Shown here in pieces: positions 7,541 through 30,048 of a stretch of DNA of 64,000 nucleotides. Source of the DNA: Gordonia bronchialis DSM 43247 (GTDB lineage Bacteria > Actinomycetota > Actinomycetes > Mycobacteriales > Mycobacteriaceae); the NCBI RefSeq assembly GCF_000024785.1, contig NC_013441.1, positions 1,488,001-1,552,000 on the forward strand. The letters run 5' to 3'. The translations under genes and the position numbers were made by a program. Under the pieces are notes generated by a model. The model searched no databases, was not told the origin of the DNA, and worked only from the letters and a program-made list of their open reading frames with translations. The first letter of the stretch is position 1, and each line of letters starts with the position of its first letter.

Positions 7541-9364
7541 TTAGCCTGCGCCACAGTTGTATTGGAACGAAAACATGCCCTGAACTGGTACGGGTGAAAT
7601 CGGCACGAATCGCGTTCGCATCGAGTAGGTCAGGGGTTCGATTCCCCTTAGCTCCACCAAAGTGTTCTTACTCGAACCGGTGCCCGAAAGGATGTCGGCG
7701 AGGGAGAGAGCCAAATCAGAAGAAGAGTCGTCACCCGTACGCTTCGAGGCCCCCGCCAGGGGGTCTCGGTTTGCGTTTGCGGCATCGGTGGTCGCTTGTG
7801 CTCTCGTGGTGAGTGCGTGTGCAGCGTGGAAGTCTGCGAACGGCGGGTTCTGTCGGCTTCCCTGAACGCCGTGCTCGTCGATGTAGAAGTACTGGTAGAA
7901 GGTTTGGTTGAGGTTGCGTCGAACGGTGTCGTTTCCGTCTCGGTAGAAGGTGTCGGGGTGCGATACGAGGTCGAGGGCGTCGAGGAGCACTCCTGCGCCG
8001 ACGGCGATCTCGGCGGCAGCGTTGGCCAGCCCGGCTTCCGCAGCCGCGCGATCCGTCTGAATCTTGCGGAGTTTGGCCCTGACCTTTGCTTGTGGGATGC
8101 CGTCATCAGCGAGGAGATCAAGCAGGCGGTCCTCCTTGCCGTCCAGTTCCTTGATCTTGCGGTTCAGGGCTGCGTGGAGCTCGGTAACGCTACGTTGCTC
8201 GTCTGCCACGGCGTCCTCAAGCAGTCTGCGCACCTCAGCGACGAAGGAGGCTGGCAACGCCAGCGTCAGGTAGTGGTCAGCGATGGCCTGTTCGACTCCA
8301 TCGGCGGGCAGGTGCGGCAGGTCACAGATGCCGTCCTGCCGCCCTCGCCACATGAAGTACGCGTAGCGCCTGCCCGAACGGCCTCGGGCTTCGGTGTAGA
8401 TGAGCCGTGTCATTCGTCCGTTATGTTCGCACCGAGCACAGAACAGTGCCCCCTTGAGGTAGTGCTGCAGTACACGATCGCGCTGGCCGCTCTTGCTGCG
8501 GAAATCAGCGACTTCTTGAACCCGGTCGAACAACTCCTGATCGACGATGGGCTCGTGTCGGCCTTTGAACACATCCCCTTTGTAGTTGATGTAGCCGAGG
8601 TAGTATTGGTCTCGCAGCATCCGGTGTAGCGATTTGAACGTCATGGGGCGTTCGGGATATTTCGGGGTTGCGCGTGTGGTCAGGCCGAGATCGGCCATGG
8701 TCGATTCGAGGCGTTCCAGACCGTAGTCGCCGGTGGCGTATAGCTCGAATGCCTTGCGGATGAGCGGTGCCCGTTTGGGGTCAAGTTCAACGGTGTTGAT
8801 CTGCCGACCTTCGTGCTCGATGCGGACGTTGCGGTAGCCGATCGGCGCTTTGCCCGTTGTGCCGCCGTTGGTTGCTTTGTGTTGCAGCTTGATGCGGATG
8901 TCTTCGCCGTTCTGCCTGTTTTGGATATCGTTAAAGATGTCGGTGACTGCCTCCATGGCATCGGCAAAGACGCCGTCACCGAAATCCTCGCGCGCGGAAA
9001 CCAGTCTTACGTGCAACTTGTCCAGTAGTCGCTTGGTGATCGCGGCGTCGATGTAGTTACGGAAGGCGCGGGATCGTGCGTACACGATGACGTAGCGCAC
9101 GTCCGGGTTCTCACGAAGGAAGGTCAGCATGTCCTGAAAGACTTGCCGCTTCTCGATCGTGGAAGCCGAGACACCGGGTTCCACAAACTCACGCGCGACC
9201 GCTGCGCCGATGCCGTCCGCTTTGCGGGTTGCAACCTCGCGCTGGGTTGCGATGGAATTTCCATCGCGATCGATGTCGATGGCTGTGTCCATCTGTTTCT
9301 TGCTTGATACGCGTAGGTAGAGCACGGCCTTGTCGGGTTCGTTTGATTCCGTCGCGTAGGTCAT
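7541..9364 (-). CDS. Large serine recombinase (integrase type)
   Basis: The product is a 607-aa large serine recombinase. The N-terminal resolvase domain has catalytic S20 (LYLRVSSKKQ) and SRAFRNYIDAAITKRLLDKL. A Recombinase domain follows (about 190-270, ELDPKRAPLIRKAFELYATG), then a zinc-ribbon (FCARCEHNGRMTRL ... CDLPHLP) and a coiled coil (about 385-450). The last 20-odd codons are the antisense of the tRNA-Ala fragment (VELRGIEPLTYSMRT), and the frame ends 72 bases inside the first element. The C-terminus is therefore set by whatever lies beyond the attachment site. It starts three bases after the XRE gene stop and is probably co-transcribed with it. It is the likely integrase of the second block. 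Confidence 0.92.
   Translation of the reverse strand: MTYATESNEPDKAVLYLRVSSKKQMDTAIDIDRDGNSIATQREVATRKADGIGAAVAREFVEPGVSASTIEKRQVFQDMLTFLRENPDVRYVIVYARSRAFRNYIDAAITKRLLDKLHVRLVSAREDFGDGVFADAMEAVTDIFNDIQNRQNGEDIRIKLQHKATNGGTTGKAPIGYRNVRIEHEGRQINTVELDPKRAPLIRKAFELYATGDYGLERLESTMADLGLTTRATPKYPERPMTFKSLHRMLRDQYYLGYINYKGDVFKGRHEPIVDQELFDRVQEVADFRSKSGQRDRVLQHYLKGALFCARCEHNGRMTRLIYTEARGRSGRRYAYFMWRGRQDGICDLPHLPADGVEQAIADHYLTLALPASFVAEVRRLLEDAVADEQRSVTELHAALNRKIKELDGKEDRLLDLLADDGIPQAKVRAKLRKIQTDRAAAEAGLANAAAEIAVGAGVLLDALDLVSHPDTFYRDGNDTVRRNLNQTFYQYFYIDEHGVQGSRQNPPFADFHAAHALTTRAQATTDAANANRDPLAGASKRTGDDSSSDLALSLADILSGTGSSKNTLVELRGIEPLTYSMRTRFVPISPVPVQGMFSFQYNCGAG
7613..7659 (+). repeat. attR: 47-bp tRNA-Ala 3' segment, right copy
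   Basis: This is an exact copy of 1210-1256 lacking the 5' half of the tRNA, so it is not a functional tRNA. It marks the right end of the first element. It is also read, in antisense, as the last codons of the serine recombinase gene on the minus strand. Confidence 0.95.
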
Positions 9365-18713: not shown

Positions 18714-19340
18714 GTGACGCGTGTGATTGGACCAACGGTCGTCCGCTGGGAGTACTCAGCAATGATGGATGCGCTTGAGATGGCTTCATCTTACTGTATG
18801 GACGTTTTGTCACTCCCAACTAAGGAAACTAGAACAGACCAAGTGGCAGATGCCGCAGGGGCGGTAGACGCGGTCCTTGCTAGCGCAAGCACAAACTTCG
18901 AGATATCCCATCGCAAGAGCGGCGAACCATTGAAGCAATGGGACGTGAACCCCATTTCGGGTCGCACAAACCTGATGGCAGGTCTATACGATTGCGGAAT
19001 ATCGACGGTAAGAGCAGATGAGACTGGAACAGAATTTTTTGCGGCGATCGCAATTCCAGTCATGGGTCGCATCTACGGTACCGACGGAACTACTGTCATT
19101 AAGAGAACCCGAGACTCATCGACTGGTCACATGATTGAACGGATATTTCAGAAGCCTGCCACGGATGTTGTAAGTGGCAGCAATTCGGGGATCGACGGTG
19201 TTAACCTGGCAACAGGGAGCTATGTCTACGATGCTGTTTTTGTTTTCGAAGGGCGATCAGGCGCAATAGGTAGCGCTCCTGAATCACCGGTAGATAAACG
19301 TGCAGTAGATTTTCTGATGAGAGCCATGTCGAGGAGCTAG
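18714..19340 (+). CDS. Degenerate inositol-monophosphatase-like protein, 208 aa (tentative)
   Basis: The GTG at 18714 has AGGTGAGG five bases upstream. The protein contains GEPLKQ and WDVNPISGRTNLMAGLYDCG, which aligns by eye with the inositol-monophosphatase signature (DPIDGTTNF...G), and a following GTEFFAAIAIP-type strand. The metal-binding Asp residues of that signature are Asn and Ser here, and the protein is shorter than a typical 260-aa family member. Catalysis is therefore doubtful. It precedes a HAD gene on the same strand, and codon use is AT-richer than in the surroundings, which suggests recent transfer. The family call is weak. Confidence 0.6.
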   Translation: MTRVIGPTVVRWEYSAMMDALEMASSYCMDVLSLPTKETRTDQVADAAGAVDAVLASASTNFEISHRKSGEPLKQWDVNPISGRTNLMAGLYDCGISTVRADETGTEFFAAIAIPVMGRIYGTDGTTVIKRTRDSSTGHMIERIFQKPATDVVSGSNSGIDGVNLATGSYVYDAVFVFEGRSGAIGSAPESPVDKRAVDFLMRAMSRS

Positions 19341-19401: not shown

Positions 19402-20079
19402 ATGAACCTCTACCTATTCGATATTGACGGTACTCTAGTCGGATCTGCCGATGGACACAAAGATGCCTTCGCGGTGGGATTTTCGAAGGTTTTTGGAATC
19501 TTTGCTAGTATTCACGAAGTTGACTTCAGAGGTTGCACGGACTTTCAGATAATCGCGATGCTCGCAGAACTGCATACGATTCGTCTGACGCAGGAGTCGA
19601 TAGCGAATCTGGAGTCTGTTATGTCGGAATACTATGCTGACGTTGCTCAGAATTTGACGATTGAGCCCATTCGAGGTGCTCGTGATGCTCTTCTCAGTAT
19701 CCGCGACTCGGGAAATTCTATCGAATTACTTTCGGGGAACTTGTCCAATATTGCAGAAATCAAGCTGAAAAAGGCCGGGATATTCGACCTGTTCGAGTCC
19801 GGTACGTACGGTGACTATGCGGACAGCCGAGTCGCGCTAGTTTGATCTGCCCTCGCTCGTAGCAGGAAAAGGATCGCTGACAACATATTTGTTGTGGGAG
19901 ACACTCCGCAAGATGTCCTCGCTGCGACGGCCAACGAACTGAAAGCCATCGCCGTAATGACTGGTGGCTTTACGGAGCATGAACTGAAGGATGCGGGAGC
20001 ATTATTAGTTCTAGATTCTGTATCTGATATTAATTATCTTGGTTCAATGTCATCGAACGAAGATGCCATAGCTGCCTAA
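19402..20079 (+). pseudogene. HAD-family phosphatase gene with an in-frame TGA
   Basis: The frame encodes a HAD hydrolase of the phosphoglycolate-phosphatase type. Motif I is FDIDGTLVG (residues 6-14), motif II ELLSGN, the Lys segment is EIKLKKAGIFDLF, and motif IV is FVVGDTPQDVLAATANEL. A TGA at 19843-19845 interrupts it between motifs III and IV, but the same frame continues with perfect domain content to 20079. A single CGA-to-TGA change would explain it. The 3' end overlaps the convergent gene 20030-21154. The start could also be the ATG at 19381. Confidence 0.75.
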
Positions 20080-21154
20080 CAGTCCCTAGTCCCGGCACTA
20101 GTAACAGAGATACGAATCCGATATACCAGCCAGAGTCTTGCGAAAGGAAAATTCCATATACAGCTAGCGCAACCAGTATAAGTAAGACCTGACTGTACGC
20201 GACAACATTCCAGAAGTAGGACGGATTCAGGACAGAGAACCGATTCCTGTATGATTCCTGCAGATTGTCGGCAAGTTTATCTGCGTCTTCAAGTATTAGC
20301 GCAAGGTCGTGCACAGACAAAGTGACAAGTTTGCGAGCAGACGCAAGTTTGAGGGCCAGTAGCGCCCAGCTTGTTTCCCAAGCGTCGTGGTACCAACTTC
20401 CGTCTAGTCGCCGCCCATCGCTGAATAGATCATCGACGCACGCAGAAACTCGTGCAGAGTGAGTGGGGTGCGTGCTAGCAGACAGTCCAACTAGTGCGGA
20501 ACAGTATTCCACGAAATTCGCCTTCGTGACATCTACGCTTCCTAACCATGCGCCCAGTTCGTCACACTGAAGACGAAGATCTATATTCGCCTCCGGCGCA
20601 GCCACGAGCGCAGAAGAAACCTGACCAAGGCAATAAGGAGTCGCTGGATATATCCGCTGTGTACGAAGAATTGACACCCATTCGGGGATGGAATTGGAGT
20701 CTGGGCGGCGCGCAGTAACCGTGATCAATAGCTGTGCGATATGGTGAGGCTTTAAATGAGGGTCAGGCACGAGTTGGGACAGGTAATCTGTTGCTTGATC
20801 CACCCATGTGTCGGTATAGGCCGATCCGGCTAGGGCGTTTGCGGCGACAGCCGTGTCCCATACGGTCTCTAGCTTCCCGTTGGACGAGGAAGCGATAACG
20901 TGGCGGGCAGCGCGTTCGAATCCGTCACTCTGAGACCAACCGGGTTGCCAACTTCTGATCGCCTTAACTGCGATCGCCGTATAAGCTGCGCTATTATTTC
21001 CGAATCCGCCTGAGGGTAGTTGTGACGAAATAAGCCATTCTATGGATTGCCTCAAGCGCGGGTCGGAACTCTCATCGACTGTGGTATCTACAGTGTAGCG
21101 GGATAGTTGTCTTCTGACATGATCTACAGTCATCCGAACACTACGGTCTGTCAT
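20030..21154 (-). CDS. Squalene-cyclase/prenyltransferase-repeat membrane protein
   Basis: The product is 374 aa. Residues about 25-300 form the alpha-helical repeat fold of squalene/hopene cyclases and prenyltransferase beta chains. Visible repeats are SIEWLISSQLPSGGFGNN, ETVWDTAVAANAL (compare VWDTALA of cyclases) and LDGSWYHDAWETSWALLALK. The catalytic DxDD of class II cyclases was not found. Two C-terminal membrane helices follow (YSQVLLILVALAVYGIFL and YIGFVSLLLVPGLG). It is the last gene of a four-gene operon after HIT, NTase and HAD, starting two bases after the HAD stop. It could be a lipid-modifying or lipid-sensing component. The fold is fairly clear, the function is not. Confidence 0.7.
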   Translation of the reverse strand: MTDRSVRMTVDHVRRQLSRYTVDTTVDESSDPRLRQSIEWLISSQLPSGGFGNNSAAYTAIAVKAIRSWQPGWSQSDGFERAARHVIASSSNGKLETVWDTAVAANALAGSAYTDTWVDQATDYLSQLVPDPHLKPHHIAQLLITVTARRPDSNSIPEWVSILRTQRIYPATPYCLGQVSSALVAAPEANIDLRLQCDELGAWLGSVDVTKANFVEYCSALVGLSASTHPTHSARVSACVDDLFSDGRRLDGSWYHDAWETSWALLALKLASARKLVTLSVHDLALILEDADKLADNLQESYRNRFSVLNPSYFWNVVAYSQVLLILVALAVYGIFLSQDSGWYIGFVSLLLVPGLGTVRQLWHLRSMTLNQDN

Positions 21155-21156
21155 TC

Positions 21157-21759
21157 CTAGATCCCCATTTGTTCGTTGACCACAGAGTCGACCCACAGGC
21201 CGTCACTATCTGCTTGTATCGCTGGGATGTTCGCCGACCGGGCCGCCTTCACGTTCAATGAGTCGTCATCGACGAAAAGTACCGAATCCACTGGCTCTTT
21301 AGCGATCTCTAGCAACTTAAAAAAGTACTCTGTGTCTGGTTTTCGGCAGTGCATTTCAGATGAGCACGCGATTGCGTTGAATGTATTGAACCATGGGAAC
21401 TTCAACCTCCAAATCGCCAGCCATGGACTGTAATGATTGGTCGCAAGTATTGTCTTAACCCCAAGTTTGGATAGCGTCAAAAGTCCGGCAACTCCATGGT
21501 TTATCTCTAAGAAGCCATCCAGAAAGATTGAGCGGATCTTTTCTGGATGTGTGCCGGTGACACGCGAAAGCTCATTCCAAACTTCAAATTCCGAAGACCT
21601 GCCCGTCTCGAATGGAGTGCGGACGTGGTCAATCCATCGCTTCTTGGCTATTTCGGCTAAGTTCTCGTCGCCACCAGCAATTTCAAGCCAGAATCCGCCT
21701 CGGGTAGGATCGGTGAGTAATACTCCTCCGAGATCTACTGCTAAGGTAGAGTATCGCAC
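21157..21759 (-). CDS. HAD-superfamily hydrolase (YihX-like)
   Basis: This 200-aa HAD phosphatase has motif I VDLGGVLL, motif II ILATNHYS, a Lys in HCRKPDTEYF and motif IV SVLFVDDDSLNVKAARSANI. The DLGGVL form and CRKPD segment match HAD-IA enzymes such as sugar-1-phosphatases. The start lies inside the last codons of the nucleotidyltransferase gene (19-base overlap), so the proteins are made together. Low GC. The substrate is unknown; a phosphorylated product of the neighbouring enzymes is possible. Confidence 0.85.
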   Translation of the reverse strand: MRYSTLAVDLGGVLLTDPTRGGFWLEIAGGDENLAEIAKKRWIDHVRTPFETGRSSEFEVWNELSRVTGTHPEKIRSIFLDGFLEINHGVAGLLTLSKLGVKTILATNHYSPWLAIWRLKFPWFNTFNAIACSSEMHCRKPDTEYFFKLLEIAKEPVDSVLFVDDDSLNVKAARSANIPAIQADSDGLWVDSVVNEQMGI

Positions 21760-22541
21760 TGCTGGTGAGCCTCCTGTAGGTGGCGTTCGACTATCCGAAG
21801 TGCCGTCCGGTTATTACTCGAGATAGTTCCTTGGCTGGCGAACTCTATCCAATCCACAACATGGCGGCATCCATCGATGATTTGCATCGGACTGGCAGAG
21901 AACGCGAGACGACTCACTAAATCGCGGTTGGCGGAGTCTCTGGATTCATATCTCCTGGACGGTTCCCGGAAATTTGGCTGCCCGAGAGTTCGGTCCTCTA
22001 AGTAGCAGAGTAGAGCTTCGACGACGCCGGTGAGTCTGCAACGTGCGTTGATGAACTCACCTCGTCGCAGCTGAATGGAGACGTTCATCAGGTGATAGAT
22101 TAGTCCATCTAGCGTGTTATCGATCCCGGCGCGGGGGGAGGATTCCCTGTTCAAGGTATTGCGACGGATCGTCTGGTCGGGATCCTTTATTATTCCCTCA
22201 AGCTCGTAGAACAATGTCGGCCATCGACGAATGTCGTCCTGCCTGGATATATGAAGCACCGAAAAGTCCACACCGAAGCCATCGACTATTGAATGGAATT
22301 TCGATAGGCCGTTCCAATATATTAAGTGAGGATTTAGTCGGCTCGAAAGAAAGAGTTCTCGCACACGTTCTCTATCCCATCTGTCTATATCCTTGGTAAA
22401 CAGGAAATAGTCAAGGTCTGATAAATTATCAGAGTTCTTCTTGGATTGAGATCCGACCAGAATGGCTGAATATATGTCAGGAGATCGGCAAATCTCGGCT
22501 CGCACTCTTTCTTCTACGTCCTCCCTGTGCGATGAGGTCAC
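21741..22541 (-). CDS. Nucleotidyltransferase (Pol-beta superfamily)
   Basis: The product is 266 aa. The N-terminal domain has the NTase signature ILVGSQSKKNSDNLSDLDYF (GS followed by D-x-D) and a later Asp in GFGVDFSVLHISR, which could be the third metal ligand. The C-terminal half is helical, as in aminoglycoside adenylyltransferases and MNT/HEPN-type pairs. The ATG at 22541 overlaps the HIT stop (ATGA). It would transfer a nucleotide to a small molecule or protein. With a HIT-type hydrolase and a HAD phosphatase in one operon, it suggests a make-and-break cycle for a nucleotidylated metabolite. Confidence 0.82.
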   Translation of the reverse strand: MTSSHREDVEERVRAEICRSPDIYSAILVGSQSKKNSDNLSDLDYFLFTKDIDRWDRERVRELFLSSRLNPHLIYWNGLSKFHSIVDGFGVDFSVLHISRQDDIRRWPTLFYELEGIIKDPDQTIRRNTLNRESSPRAGIDNTLDGLIYHLMNVSIQLRRGEFINARCRLTGVVEALLCYLEDRTLGQPNFREPSRRYESRDSANRDLVSRLAFSASPMQIIDGCRHVVDWIEFASQGTISSNNRTALRIVERHLQEAHQQCDTLP

Positions 22542-22993
22542 TTGACTAGACCTTTCGCGCGAGCTGACTCCCGGAGTCTCTCGGTAACTGATGCCAATAC
22601 GAGTTCAGGTGTAGGCTCGGACGAACGAGGAAAGTCCAAGAAATATGGCCAGTCGTCGTCGTGCCAGAAACCTCCGCCAAATCGCACCGGAGTACTATAG
22701 CGAGGTATCCCGTGAAAGTGGACTGACGGGTCGTGCTGCATCGAAGCGACATAGTTGAAGTGCGCTGGTTGAAACGCATGAGTAATAACTGACTCGAAGG
22801 CCCACACCGCCTTCTGGAAATCCCGGATCTCTCGCTTGGTTAGGTCGGGTATCCGAGGTACGTCGCGTTTCAGTAAGAGCGCGCAGCTGCCAATTGTTAT
22901 CTGTCGTCGCCGTGCTGCAACTATCCAGTGCTTGGTCTGTAGGATCTGTGTATCCTCTAGACGAAATCGTTGCCAGTGCGGTAGGTTAGTCAG
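22538..22993 (-). CDS. HIT-like protein, probable CTG start
   Basis: This 151-aa protein carries the motif SVHFHGIPRY (residues 90-99), matching the HIT signature H-x-H-x-H except that the first His is Ser. The catalytic middle His would be H92. The fold context fits (KHWIVAARRRQ, FESVITHAFQPAHFNYVASM). The frame is open upstream to about 23097 but has no ATG, GTG or TTG before the internal GTG at 22807, which would cut off half the domain. A CTG at 22993 with a perfect AGGAG five bases upstream is the best start. It is the first gene of the HIT-NTase-HAD-cyclase-like operon. Confidence 0.75.
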   Translation of the reverse strand: MTNLPHWQRFRLEDTQILQTKHWIVAARRRQITIGSCALLLKRDVPRIPDLTKREIRDFQKAVWAFESVITHAFQPAHFNYVASMQHDPSVHFHGIPRYSTPVRFGGGFWHDDDWPYFLDFPRSSEPTPELVLASVTERLRESARAKGLVK

Positions 22994-23039
22994 CGTCGCT
23001 CCTGGTGCTCGATTCCGGACAGTCTTTGTGAATATTATA
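22994..23039 (-). promoter_or_regulatory. -10 box and ribosome-binding site of the HIT operon
   Basis: On the minus strand a consensus -10 TATAAT lies at 23039-23034, followed after about 30 bases by AGGAG (23003-22999) and, five bases later, the CTG start codon. No good -35 was seen. The arrangement defines the 5' end of the four-gene operon. Confidence 0.55.
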
Positions 23040-26431: not shown

Positions 26432-26866
26432 TCACGCGCGGTGGACAGAATCGACGATGGTATCGACGGCGGTTGGCGTTGGCACGTGCTCCCAGACGCG
26501 GACAACGGTCCAACCCGAGCCCTCGAGTGCACGCGTCTGTTCGAGGTCTCGCTCGGCATTCCGTTCAAGCTTGCGACGCCAGAAGTCGGTGTTGGTTGCA
26601 GGTATCTGGCCGTGGAGTGGGCACAGGTGCCAGAAACAGCCGTCAACAAACACTGCAACCCGCTTCTTCGTGAAAACGATGTCGGGGCGGATCAGCCGGC
26701 CGTCGACACGGATTGGGTAGTCCTTGCGGTATCGGAAGCCGCGGCAGTGAAGCACCGATCGAATGGCTCGCTCGGGTGAAGTCTCAGAGCGTCGCACTGC
26801 GGCCATATTGCGCGAACGGGTTGCAGACGGAGCGACCAGATCACCTCGTCGTGGGGATGTGTCCAC
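26432..26866 (-). CDS. vsr: Vsr-type very short patch repair endonuclease
   Basis: The 144-aa protein shows the Vsr signature: SPERAIRSVLHCRGFRYRKD, RPDIVFTKKRVAVFVDGCFWHLCP (split here by function: catalytic Asp in RPDIVF and FVDGCFWH), NTDFWRRKLERNAERD and GWTVVRVWEHV. Vsr nicks T:G mismatches produced by deamination of 5-methylcytosine, so it normally accompanies an m5C methyltransferase. It starts six bases after the intact methyltransferase gene 26873-27901 and points to the broken one downstream. Confidence 0.92.
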   Translation of the reverse strand: MDTSPRRGDLVAPSATRSRNMAAVRRSETSPERAIRSVLHCRGFRYRKDYPIRVDGRLIRPDIVFTKKRVAVFVDGCFWHLCPLHGQIPATNTDFWRRKLERNAERDLEQTRALEGSGWTVVRVWEHVPTPTAVDTIVDSVHRA

Positions 26867-26872
26867 GTTTGA

Positions 26873-27901
26873 TTACAGTGACTCGACTAAGGACAGCCCG
26901 ATCTTCCGGGCCATCAATGGGGGTACTGCATTCCCTACCTGTCGCGCGCGCGAAGTTAGACTGCCTTCGAATCGAAAACGCCGCGAGAACGTCTGAATAC
27001 TGGCAGCCTCGCGGAGTGAGATTGCCCGATCCTGGTCGGGGTGTCCGAACCGCCCGTTTGAGTACGAGAGACATCGGGTAGTCAGGCCCGTCGCTGGTCT
27101 GTCCCACCACATCCGTCCATACGCGTCTGTATGTCCGCCATGAACTTTGTGACATTCGCTAACCAAGGCTTCGTCCCAATCGCGTCGATCGCCACCTTCG
27201 GGGGTTGCCTGGATGCGAAGTCGATTTACATCGGACAGTCTCATCGCGGCATGGTCGTCGTCTAGAGGGTGGACATCACCGTCCGCGATAGCTGGGAGAT
27301 CACCTATAACCTGTCTCACCGTGCGGGCAGGCCTACCTGCGATCGCGTGAGTCGGGCGCGGCATTCGCGGCTCGCCGATTCGGGAGGCCAGAACCACAAG
27401 CCGGCGGCGTTCTTGAGGCACACCAAACTCAAGCGCACGCAATACTCGAACGTTCACCGCATAGCCGTCACGCGAAATCGCCCTAAGGAACGAATCGAGT
27501 GGACCCTTCCTTGACTGCAGCTGCAATCCTGGAACATTTTCAATGACTACTAGATCAGGGTGAAGTGCCAGCACAAATCTCTGAAACTCGCGAAGTAAGT
27601 TTCGACGGGGGTCGTTGGCGCTGCGATTGCCATTCTGGCGCGAGAATGGTTGACACGGAGCACACCCTGCGAAGAGTGTTACTGCGCCACTCGGAACTAC
27701 GTCGGACACTTGTTCAGTAGACACGTTTCGAATGTCACCCTCGATAAAAGAGGACTTCTTGAAGTTCCGCTTGAAAGTAGCCGAAGCATCAGGGTCTGAG
27801 TCCAATCCAGCTGCAATCTGCATCCCCGCGCTCCTGAACCCGGCGCTGGTGCCACCGCACCCTGAGAAGAAGTCTACGACGGCAACCTCGTCCGTTCTCA
27901 T
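26873..27901 (-). CDS. DNA (cytosine-5) methyltransferase
   Basis: This complete 342-aa C5 methyltransferase has motif I VDFFSGCGGTSAGF, catalytic motif IV APCQPFSRQNG, motif VI VIENVPG, motif VIII FGVPQERRRLVVLAS and motif X RQVGNAVPPLMARKI. The target-recognition region lies around 215-290. The GC of this gene is lower than that of the chromosome. It overlaps the ATPase gene stop as ATGA, and Vsr follows. The operon therefore carries a putative nuclease, a modification enzyme and a repair enzyme. Confidence 0.94.
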   Translation of the reverse strand: MRTDEVAVVDFFSGCGGTSAGFRSAGMQIAAGLDSDPDASATFKRNFKKSSFIEGDIRNVSTEQVSDVVPSGAVTLFAGCAPCQPFSRQNGNRSANDPRRNLLREFQRFVLALHPDLVVIENVPGLQLQSRKGPLDSFLRAISRDGYAVNVRVLRALEFGVPQERRRLVVLASRIGEPRMPRPTHAIAGRPARTVRQVIGDLPAIADGDVHPLDDDHAAMRLSDVNRLRIQATPEGGDRRDWDEALVSECHKVHGGHTDAYGRMWWDRPATGLTTRCLSYSNGRFGHPDQDRAISLREAASIQTFSRRFRFEGSLTSRARQVGNAVPPLMARKIGLSLVESL

Positions 27902-29691
27902 GCGTCGACTGCCTGCGCAAAAGTTTCAACAATGACGCGAATTCCGACGAGAGTTGGGTCATTGTCATCAATGGAGTTCAACGCCACTCGCTGTACAGTG
28001 AATATTTCGCCACCTGTAGGCTCCGTTCCCAGACTTTCCATCGCGAAAGTTTTCCACGCTTCTTTGTAGTCAGACTGCGGGCCACCTTGGGTGGCTAGCC
28101 AAATAAATTCCTCAGGTGTACTGCACGGCAAAAAATTTACGAAAGATCGTCGCCACCTGATTGCAGTTTCTATGGAGGACTTGCGAAGTTCGGCGGCATT
28201 CTCTTCGTTTGATCCATACGGGAGTTTGGGACTCGTTCCGTTCAGTGCAGCACGGAGTTCATTCTCCAATTCACTTTCCGCTATCTCCTTAGGGTCGCGA
28301 GGGTCGTTGCATTTCTGATCTCCGTCGAGTAGTAAAAGGAGGTTTGTCCTGCCTTCATGAGACCACATGGGCACATAGTGTGACCACAGAGTCTGAGCTC
28401 CTCCGGGAATGTAGTCGACGTTTACCAGTGGGGCGCTTGAAGTATTCGCGATAGCCTTTTTCACCAACGCCTGGGCAACCCGATCCTCAACTACTACAGT
28501 TAGCCGGTCATAGGCGGCCCCCAGTGACTCGAATGCGACGCGCGGAGACGATGATTGTGTCGGGATGTCGACCATTGAATCGTCGTCCCGGATTGTTAGC
28601 ACCTTGATCGCATTTGATGGCAGCGCTCGGACCATATCTGGGGAATGCGTTGCGTAGACAATTTGATGTAGCCGTGTCTTAGCCGCAAACATCAGAAATT
28701 CAACTAGTGCGTTTTGAGCAGCTGGATGGAGTGATATTTCCGGTTCGTCAAGCAGTATTAGTGAGCTCTGCGGCGCAGAGAGCATCCGCATTACTAGCAT
28801 CACGGCAGCGAACTCGCCTGACCCCGCAAATGCCTCGGAGTATGATATGTCGTTGGACTTGAGTAATACAGTCCAGCCGCCGGATAATCGAAAATAGCGG
28901 TGCTCGATCACGCGAATTGAACTATACGAGCGGCCCAGTATTACTTCTGCCCACTTCTTAGTATCACCTGACAGCTCGGTTACGGGACTGATAATCCGAT
29001 TGTGTTGGTAGTATTCGTCCGAGTCGAGTTCCCGCTTGATGGCGCTAGCCAGCCGCATGGATCTTCGTCGAATCTTACGTTTCCTTTCGCGAAGTGCATG
29101 CAACGGCGGCTTCGTGTCGTTATGTAGGTCCTCAGATTGAAAGAATGCCCAATCGAACGCTGATATTTGGGATCGAAAGTCAATGTACTCGACGTTCTTG
29201 TGGATCGTGTTCCACCTAGTCTTCGAACCATCTGCAGGCGGATTATCTGGATATGGATATCTCTCCATGTTGTCCGGCGGGGTGAGAAGTGGTCGGCTGG
29301 GCTCAAAAAGATCAGGATCTATCTCATTTTTGGAGCGGGCGCTCCTTAGACGTCCGATTCGTGTCTTGATTACCTCGACTTCGGGAACGTTGGATTCGGA
29401 CTTACGGCCATAGATGAATCGATGTCTGTCTTCAGATGAAATCTCATCGATCGCCGTTCCAAACCAGTAGTTTCCCAAGTCGTTACCACGCGGTGCGCCC
29501 TGAAGTGCTCGGAGAATCGCGGTCTTATTGCATCCGTTCGGACCAACAATCGCTGTTATCGGATGCGAAAATTCGATCCGGAGGTCAGTGGCCAAGTTCT
29601 TGAATCGAGGAAATCGAATGTAATGTATCGTCGGCTCAAATAGGCCTTTCGACCACATCTGACTGAGGGCCCGCTGATCGGGGTCGGACAC
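27898..29691 (-). CDS. AAA ATPase with OLD/Toprim-like C-terminal part
   Basis: The product is 597 aa. An SMC/OLD-like ATPase has Walker A IVGPNGCNKTAILRAL (about residue 48, G-C-N-K-T instead of G-x-G-K-T/S), a signature-like SGEFAAVMLVMRML, Walker B SLILLDEPEISLHP and a switch His ATHSPDMV. The C-terminal part has TVVVEDRVAQALVKKA and LLLLLDGDQK, resembling a Toprim E...DxD centre of OLD-family nucleases. The GTG at 29691 has GAGGAG five bases upstream. It is the first gene of the operon with the m5C methyltransferase and Vsr, so it may be the restriction effector. AT-rich. Confidence 0.8.
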   Translation of the reverse strand: MSDPDQRALSQMWSKGLFEPTIHYIRFPRFKNLATDLRIEFSHPITAIVGPNGCNKTAILRALQGAPRGNDLGNYWFGTAIDEISSEDRHRFIYGRKSESNVPEVEVIKTRIGRLRSARSKNEIDPDLFEPSRPLLTPPDNMERYPYPDNPPADGSKTRWNTIHKNVEYIDFRSQISAFDWAFFQSEDLHNDTKPPLHALRERKRKIRRRSMRLASAIKRELDSDEYYQHNRIISPVTELSGDTKKWAEVILGRSYSSIRVIEHRYFRLSGGWTVLLKSNDISYSEAFAGSGEFAAVMLVMRMLSAPQSSLILLDEPEISLHPAAQNALVEFLMFAAKTRLHQIVYATHSPDMVRALPSNAIKVLTIRDDDSMVDIPTQSSSPRVAFESLGAAYDRLTVVVEDRVAQALVKKAIANTSSAPLVNVDYIPGGAQTLWSHYVPMWSHEGRTNLLLLLDGDQKCNDPRDPKEIAESELENELRAALNGTSPKLPYGSNEENAAELRKSSIETAIRWRRSFVNFLPCSTPEEFIWLATQGGPQSDYKEAWKTFAMESLGTEPTGGEIFTVQRVALNSIDDNDPTLVGIRVIVETFAQAVDA

Positions 29692-30048
29692 CGCTACTCC
29701 TCTCACGTGTCGTCGGCCATGCGGCCTCAGCGTTACATCGGATCGACGATAGTCTAAGTTGGGCCTTCCTTGGTCGGAAACTCCGACGTGTCGCGAGCGG
29801 TGATTACGCCGGACGGACCGCTGATGCTGGATCTGACCGGCGGAGTCAGAGCGGCCGGGTTTCATCTCTGCTGTCGTGCGGTCGTCAATCTTCGGCTCGC
29901 CCAGTCTCGCGTTGAGAATGTGTCGTGGTCGGCTTGTCTGTATGGTCAGCGTGGGAGTCGCATCGATCTTCCGTTCGGGCCGACTCGTTGGACTGCAACG
30001 AATTCACCGAGGTGCAGCAGACCGCCTGCGGGGTGCTAGGGAGTGCCG
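29692..30048. other. Gap without a supported gene
   Basis: No frame here has both a ribosome-binding site and a recognisable product. It should contain the promoter of the ATPase-methyltransferase-Vsr operon near its left end and the 3' end of the HTH gene at its right end. GC is host-like from about 29,780 on. Confidence 0.45.

Follow-up and report, generated by a model that had tools for sequence, protein, structure and literature searches.

Single antibiotic nucleotidyltransferases (NTases) are well known, and in the Hailong layout an NTase, HalB, is combined with a membrane effector. The HIT protein MccH, which carries a Lys in the third position of its catalytic triad, is reported to hydrolyse a nucleotide antibiotic, indicating that altered triads can be active (PMC7157772). 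Among HAD-like drimenol synthases, AsDMS is reported to require the middle Asp of its DxDTT motif (PMC9128629). Here we describe an operon that combines a HIT-like protein, an NTase, a HAD hydrolase and a cyclase-type barrel protein with a predicted membrane anchor. It lies in a 64,000-nucleotide stretch of Gordonia bronchialis DSM 43247 (NCBI RefSeq assembly GCF_000024785.1, contig NC_013441.1, positions 1,488,001 to 1,552,000 of the forward strand; hereafter the window), for which an earlier note made from the sequence alone had proposed a nucleotidylation cycle. The operon is real, recurrent and moves horizontally as a unit. The earlier note knew of no described system with this set of genes, and our literature searches for a writer NTase, a likely eraser HIT protein, a phosphatase and a membrane barrel found none either.

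The four genes are located on the minus strand in the order HIT-like, NTase, HAD and barrel with two C-terminal transmembrane helices (2TM), nearly touching one another and free of internal stops (Table 1), just where the earlier note had placed them. The HIT and NTase genes meet in GTGA, which had been misread as ATGA, whereas the reported 19-base overlap between the NTase and HAD genes and the 2-base gap between the HAD and barrel genes are both correct. Consistent with the AT-richness remarked on previously, the G+C content of the operon is 0.512, compared with 0.646 for the window. ATG, GTG and TTG starts are absent from the 5' end of the HIT gene in the window, and translation likely starts at a CTG (22991-22993) that lies 5 bases 3' of a strong Shine-Dalgarno sequence, AGGAG. 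Similarly, the HIT gene of G809, a second genome of the genus, has a CTG (L011 3701-3703) 5 bases after AGGAGG; an in-frame stop immediately upstream of this CTG rules out a longer reading. The TATAAT box described ahead of the operon is indeed present: the exact hexamer occurs twice in the 64 kb, both strands counted, and one of the two copies is at 23039, just 5' of the operon. A TATAAT is also found 5' of the HIT gene of Williamsia herbipolensis and none in the ~145 bases 5' of the G809 HIT gene, and a promoter scan detected no paired -35/-10 site at the operon.

Table 1 Positions of the four genes, the putative start signal, the adjoining gene and related plasmid clusters
Feature	Position	Strand	Basis
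TATAAT box, likely -10 without a clear -35, 5' of the operon	23034..23039	-	Sequence
HIT-like protein, 151 aa, likely CTG start after AGGAG, triad SxHxH	22538..22993	-	Profile match to HIT structure 2oik
LinB/ANT-type nucleotidyltransferase, 266 aa, catalytic residues GS..SDLD..GVDFS	21741..22541	-	
HAD-IA hydrolase, 200 aa, DxG motif I, T107, K140, DDD164-166	21157..21759	-	Pfam HAD_2 and conserved motifs
Predicted terpene-cyclase-type alpha6/alpha6 barrel with a long helix and a C-terminal hydrophobic hairpin, 374 aa	20030..21154	-	
Convergent gene, no assigned family, optional partner of the operon	18717..19340	+	Genus linkage
Plasmid HIT clusters lacking the first triad His	L012 8004-10941; L013 5980-11859; L014 4956-10402		

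The order of the four genes was identical at all three loci read, namely the window, G809 and W. herbipolensis, so that the arrangement anticipated by the earlier note does recur. Identities to the window proteins in G809 and Williamsia, respectively, are 72% and 52% for HIT, 50% and 35% for NTase, 54% and 44% for HAD, and 65% and 37% for the barrel (with the G809 HIT protein compared without its last few codons and the G809 NTase with one extra codon at its start). All four frames remain intact across this range of 35-72% identity, which argues for selection on each of the genes. Among 59 genomes of the genus, two encode the barrel protein, the window's own and G809. Searches for HIT, NTase and HAD each picked out this pair and no other genome at the thresholds used (1e-12, 1e-6 and 1e-20, respectively). 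The recurring order at three loci and the joint presence of all four genes in this one pair out of 59 genomes together reject the possibility of chance neighbours.

Protein searches returned four matches for the NTase and six for the barrel (the latter among the best 8000 candidates), the query itself included in both counts. One of the barrel proteins, P0009 from Gordonia rubripertincta, agrees by eye with the G809 barrel from P0009 residue 2 on. The NTase match P0005 and the barrel match P0008 both stem from contigs of 48,758 bases, probably a single contig that carries a fourth copy. When the barrel alignment was scanned against 84,980 species genomes, two loci emerged, W. herbipolensis and a contig of an archaeal metagenome-assembled genome (MAG); this collection, like the plasmid, phage and viral ones, may omit records close to the window's genome. 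In wider draws, the barrel was present in the window's own genome only, that is, in 1 of 397 genomes of the order and 1 of 394 of the class. The NTase profile matched 3 of 396 genomes of the phylum including the window's own, the other two matches being weak (E 5.4e-8 and 6.3e-7), and tblastn with the window NTase, HIT and HAD proteins gave no match within the 2.0 and 3.4 kb around them. NTase tblastn found no match in plasmids or phages, a distant barrel relative (P0014), used there in place of the window's barrel protein, found none in plasmids, and pattern scans with the NTase and barrel alignments found none in viral contigs.

In the window's genome, dapA, rnj, a maleylpyruvate-isomerase-like gene, ftsK and terC follow one another, and a spacer of 56 bases separates the rnj stop from the match to the following gene. 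The same flanks enclose 3.4 kb in Williamsia, and the cassette fills this gap between housekeeping genes; beyond the four genes, the insert contains only a mechanical antisense open reading frame (from a list of frames of at least 130 aa). The rnj proteins of Williamsia and of the window's genome have different ends, which blurs the exact insertion point. The cassette has a G+C content of 0.531 in Williamsia, where the flanks measure 0.647 and 0.682; in G809 the values are 0.533 for the cassette and 0.663 and 0.603 for stretches on its two sides. Collectively, the shared order, the insertion into the Williamsia gap, the co-occurrence in the same two genomes and the low G+C in all copies indicate that the cassette travels as a unit. 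By eye, the 17 kb read in Williamsia shows no recombinase gene adjoining the cassette, and the intergenic stretches flanking its four genes have no direct or inverted 9-base word in common. The surroundings of the G809 copy, judged from translations by eye, comprise sugar, polysaccharide and transposase-like genes. The island in the window holds in a row genes for a Vsr-type endonuclease (26432-26866), a DNA cytosine methyltransferase (26873-27901) and an AAA_15/AAA_21 ATPase (27898-29865), which look like a restriction-type cluster (26432-29865). Carriage by an element, as suggested in the earlier note, thus applies in the window, whereas the Williamsia copy between housekeeping genes rejects element-bound cargo as a general rule.

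Each of the two predicted nucleotide-handling proteins retains catalytic residues. The pattern GS x9-11 DxD and a third Asp are present in all five NTase sequences aligned (row P0006 corresponds by eye to the G809 NTase). The predicted two-domain fold is like that of LinB, weak profile matches span most of the sequence, and the protein resembles LinB/ANT antibiotic nucleotidyltransferases. The NCBIfam Lnu models were not reached, with best scores of 20.3 bits against 540 for the window protein and up to 32.8 (P0007) against 450 for its relatives. For the HIT-like protein, profile matches to structure 2oik (E 3.2e-8) and to Fhit (0.0012) support a HIT fold; its Pfam HIT score of 14.1 bits is below the gathering cut-off of 21.5. 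The first triad position is occupied by S, S, Y, F, D and D in the six sequences compared, so the first His is lost in every one of them, and the middle and last His are kept in all six.

The HAD protein scored 34.2 bits against both Pfam HAD_2 and Hydrolase, above their cut-offs of 23.8 and 26.4. Its nucleophile Asp, Thr, Lys and DDD are kept in all three copies. Motif I reads DLGG (3/3), with Gly in place of the second Asp of DxD, and motif IV is DDD without the E of DDxxE (3/3). Among NCBIfam models, the HAD proteins of the window and G809 came closest to an epoxide-hydrolase-N-like phosphatase and to glucose-1-phosphatase, in both cases below cut-off. The HxH with its lost first His, the NTase GS...DxD, the HAD motifs and the C-terminal hydrophobic helices of the barrel listed in the earlier note are therefore all present, and the NTase and HIT folds it named are supported, the latter by sequence profile only.

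The barrel is predicted to adopt an alpha6/alpha6 fold of the terpene-cyclase type (class II beta-domain fold), which also fits TED, GH76, AprG and cobalamin carriers. A wider search gave 111 matches among the best 8000 candidates; nine belong to the family, one of them being P0010, and the other 102, with E values of 6e-10 or weaker and cyclase-type Pfam domains, were not counted in it. The nine-row family alignment leaves out P0012 (partial N-terminus) and P0010 (a shorter Williamsia version). None of these nine relatives carries a DxDD, DxDTT or DxD[ST] acid motif, compared with DxDDTA in 10 of 12 squalene-hopene-type cyclases used as a control. By contrast, WD (99-100), HHxAQ (137) and GSWY (252) are kept in all nine. 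The hydrophobic helices at the C terminus are conserved. The relatives P0011, P0014, P0015 and P0016, at 24-32% identity, also show this set of WD, HHxAQ and GSWY. Sequence profiles place WDTA on the repeat preceding DxDD, whereas the order of structural matches (end to end, ranges only) would place it on the DxDD helix instead; DxDD is absent in either register, whichever placement holds. When the family profile was compared with one of squalene-hopene cyclases, no more than 70 columns could be aligned, and these fell in a different repeat again. The previous suggestion that this protein acts on isoprenoids thus finds no support in the sequence, given the missing class II acid motif and a fold common to non-isoprenoid proteins.

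The archaeal contig (L004 1887-3806) encodes a barrel/2TM relative of 29% identity, with the gene for a different HAD immediately after it. This 7 kb contig gave no match to HIT or NTase, and the MAG, which is of unknown completeness and was searched without a positive control, gave none to NTase; in that archaeal class, the barrel is present in 1 of 229 genomes. These results, together with an hhalign probability of 1.5, at which the archaeal and cassette HADs are not demonstrably of one subfamily, weaken the idea of a barrel and HAD core conserved into archaea.

Our preferred, still tentative, reading is that the cassette is a mobile unit which, at the membrane, nucleotidylates a small hydroxylated molecule and de-nucleotidylates it again in a cycle, probably in the service of chemical conflict or tailoring. 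What we observed of this are the four-gene unit itself, its joint transfer, the folds as predicted and the catalytic residues that are kept. In such a cycle, the LinB/ANT-like NTase would move NMP from an NTP onto the small molecule, at one of its hydroxyl (or phosphate) groups; the middle His (H92) of the HIT protein would then attack the NMP and either remove it or pass it to another acceptor; and the HAD protein would cleave off a phosphate that either remained on the molecule or came with it. The membrane-anchored barrel may bind the molecule, possibly attached to a lipid tail, in a presumed WD/HHxAQ/GSWY pocket, keeping the cycle at the membrane, presumably at its cytoplasmic face. The likeliest purpose would be to inactivate, store or finish a bioactive small molecule. 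The cycle on a small molecule proposed in the earlier note thus fits the LinB/ANT-like NTase and the HIT protein, and its interpretation as a whole is partly supported. If true, reversible nucleotide tagging of a small molecule would be a transferable trait, and a function would be assigned to a family of cyclase-type barrels without the cyclase acid, including the relatives named archaeal.

Several points weigh against this reading. Both the missing first triad His of the HIT protein and the DxG of the HAD protein could mean altered or lost catalysis, and that WD, HHxAQ and GSWY line one barrel pocket is a presumption. Substrate, reaction direction, membrane side and purpose are what we infer. 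Genomic context says little about purpose because the three settings differ. Lnu/ANT resistance genes normally act alone, without a HIT, HAD or membrane partner. Finally, distant HIT relatives found in lipid- and inositol-type clusters favour a rival, the synthesis of a head group.

According to this rival, the cassette would make a phosphodiester-linked (polyol or sugar) lipid or solute via an NMP-activated intermediate, with HIT and HAD clearing side products and the barrel presenting a prenyl or lipid acceptor. A plasmid search with the HIT protein gave 15 records of distant HITs, three of which were examined (Table 1). These relatives, of 26-31% identity, adjoin genes annotated as encoding a CDP-alcohol phosphatidyltransferase and a nucleotidyltransferase in Diaphorobacter pDCB2 and Roseomonas plasmids; the Diaphorobacter cluster also includes, by annotation, a phosphocholine cytidylyltransferase gene, and the relative on Arthrobacter pZXY24 adjoins a myo-inositol-phosphate-synthase-like gene and an NTP transferase. 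The glucose-1-phosphatase match of the HAD protein, below cut-off, and the conserved hydrophobic helices of the barrel point the same way. However, the unit contains no CDP-alcohol transferase, glycosyltransferase or sugar-nucleotide enzyme, its NTase is LinB/ANT-like, the HIT relatives are distant and the distribution is very rare, and we consider head-group synthesis unlikely.

Equally doubtful is a mobile writer-eraser system, in which the LinB/ANT-type NTase would write NMP on a small molecule, the triad-altered HIT protein would erase it, and the membrane-anchored, acid-less HHxAQ/GSWY barrel would be a receptor or reaction chamber that triggers a membrane response in defence or chemical warfare; this would be a first example. 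It is quite improbable that the operon produces an anti-phage nucleotide signal, whereby an NTase product made on infection would be bound by the barrel, the 2TM hairpin would open or disrupt the membrane, and HIT and HAD would destroy the signal. This explanation draws on the restriction-type neighbourhood in the window. The defence role suggested in the earlier note likewise has one defence-like neighbourhood of three in its favour, and against it the PADLOC models (2023 library), which matched none of the four operon proteins at E up to 0.1. Least probable is terpenoid biosynthesis, with the barrel cyclising an isoprenyl substrate in the manner of class II enzymes, the HAD protein dephosphorylating its product as in HAD-like drimenol synthases, and NTase and HIT as tailoring enzymes: cyclisation via the known acid is disfavoured by the lack of DxDD/DxD[ST] in the nine relatives as against the control cyclases, by the reported dependence of AsDMS on the middle Asp of DxDTT (PMC9128629), by a HAD without DDxxE, by a fold that also fits the other proteins named above, and by an archaeal HAD that is not demonstrably the same HAD.

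The convergent gene next to the operon (Table 1) was found in the same 2 of 59 genus genomes, adjoining the operon in both (G809 copy, L011 16-633); the 17 kb read in Williamsia gave no match to it. It matched no family above cut-off and no PDB entry. Its WxxNPISGxxN resembles the WxxDPxDGTxN of inositol monophosphatases; neither Pfam nor PDB profiles backed such an assignment, which is at most a lead. Between this gene and the operon lies a broken second HAD gene (19402-20079, plus strand), split in two frames; the corresponding gap in G809 is too short for it. In the wider island of the window, a large serine recombinase (7541-9364) with Resolvase, Recombinase and Zn ribbon domains is a possible mover of the lower-G+C region.

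Compared with known systems, the cassette NTase has the two-domain fold and catalytic GS..DxD..D in common with LinB, Lnu(B,F,H) and ANT, and differs from them in scoring far below the model cut-offs of 450-540 and in being part of an invariant operon that also encodes HIT, HAD and a membrane barrel. Relative to Hailong, the NTase appears nearer to LinB/ANT, the effector candidate is a cyclase-type barrel, and HIT and HAD are added. The HITs of the Diaphorobacter, Roseomonas and Arthrobacter plasmids carry the same variant, DPx[VI]HFHx[IF]PRY or close to it, without the first His, yet differ in overall sequence and gene content. MccH and the HIT hydrolases inactivating nucleotide antibiotics are like the cassette HIT in superfamily and catalytic middle His, whereas the MccH clade has replaced the third His by Lys and the cassette HIT has lost the first and kept the third; the role of MccH in chemical conflict is a precedent for the nucleotidylation cycle preferred here (PMC7157772). 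The HAD-like terpene cyclases AsDMS, AstC and AacA, together with SsDMS, place a cyclase-type barrel beside a HAD and offer the closest solved fold to the cassette barrel. In the cassette, however, the two are separate genes, DxDD/DxDTT and DDxxE are lacking, and C-terminal hydrophobic helices and NTase and HIT partners are present. Indeed, HAD-like drimenol synthases are defined by a HAD-cyclase fusion and DDxxE in motif IV, and the cassette has neither (PMC9128629). We rate the small-molecule nucleotidyltransferase chemistry as known and its four-part form as new.

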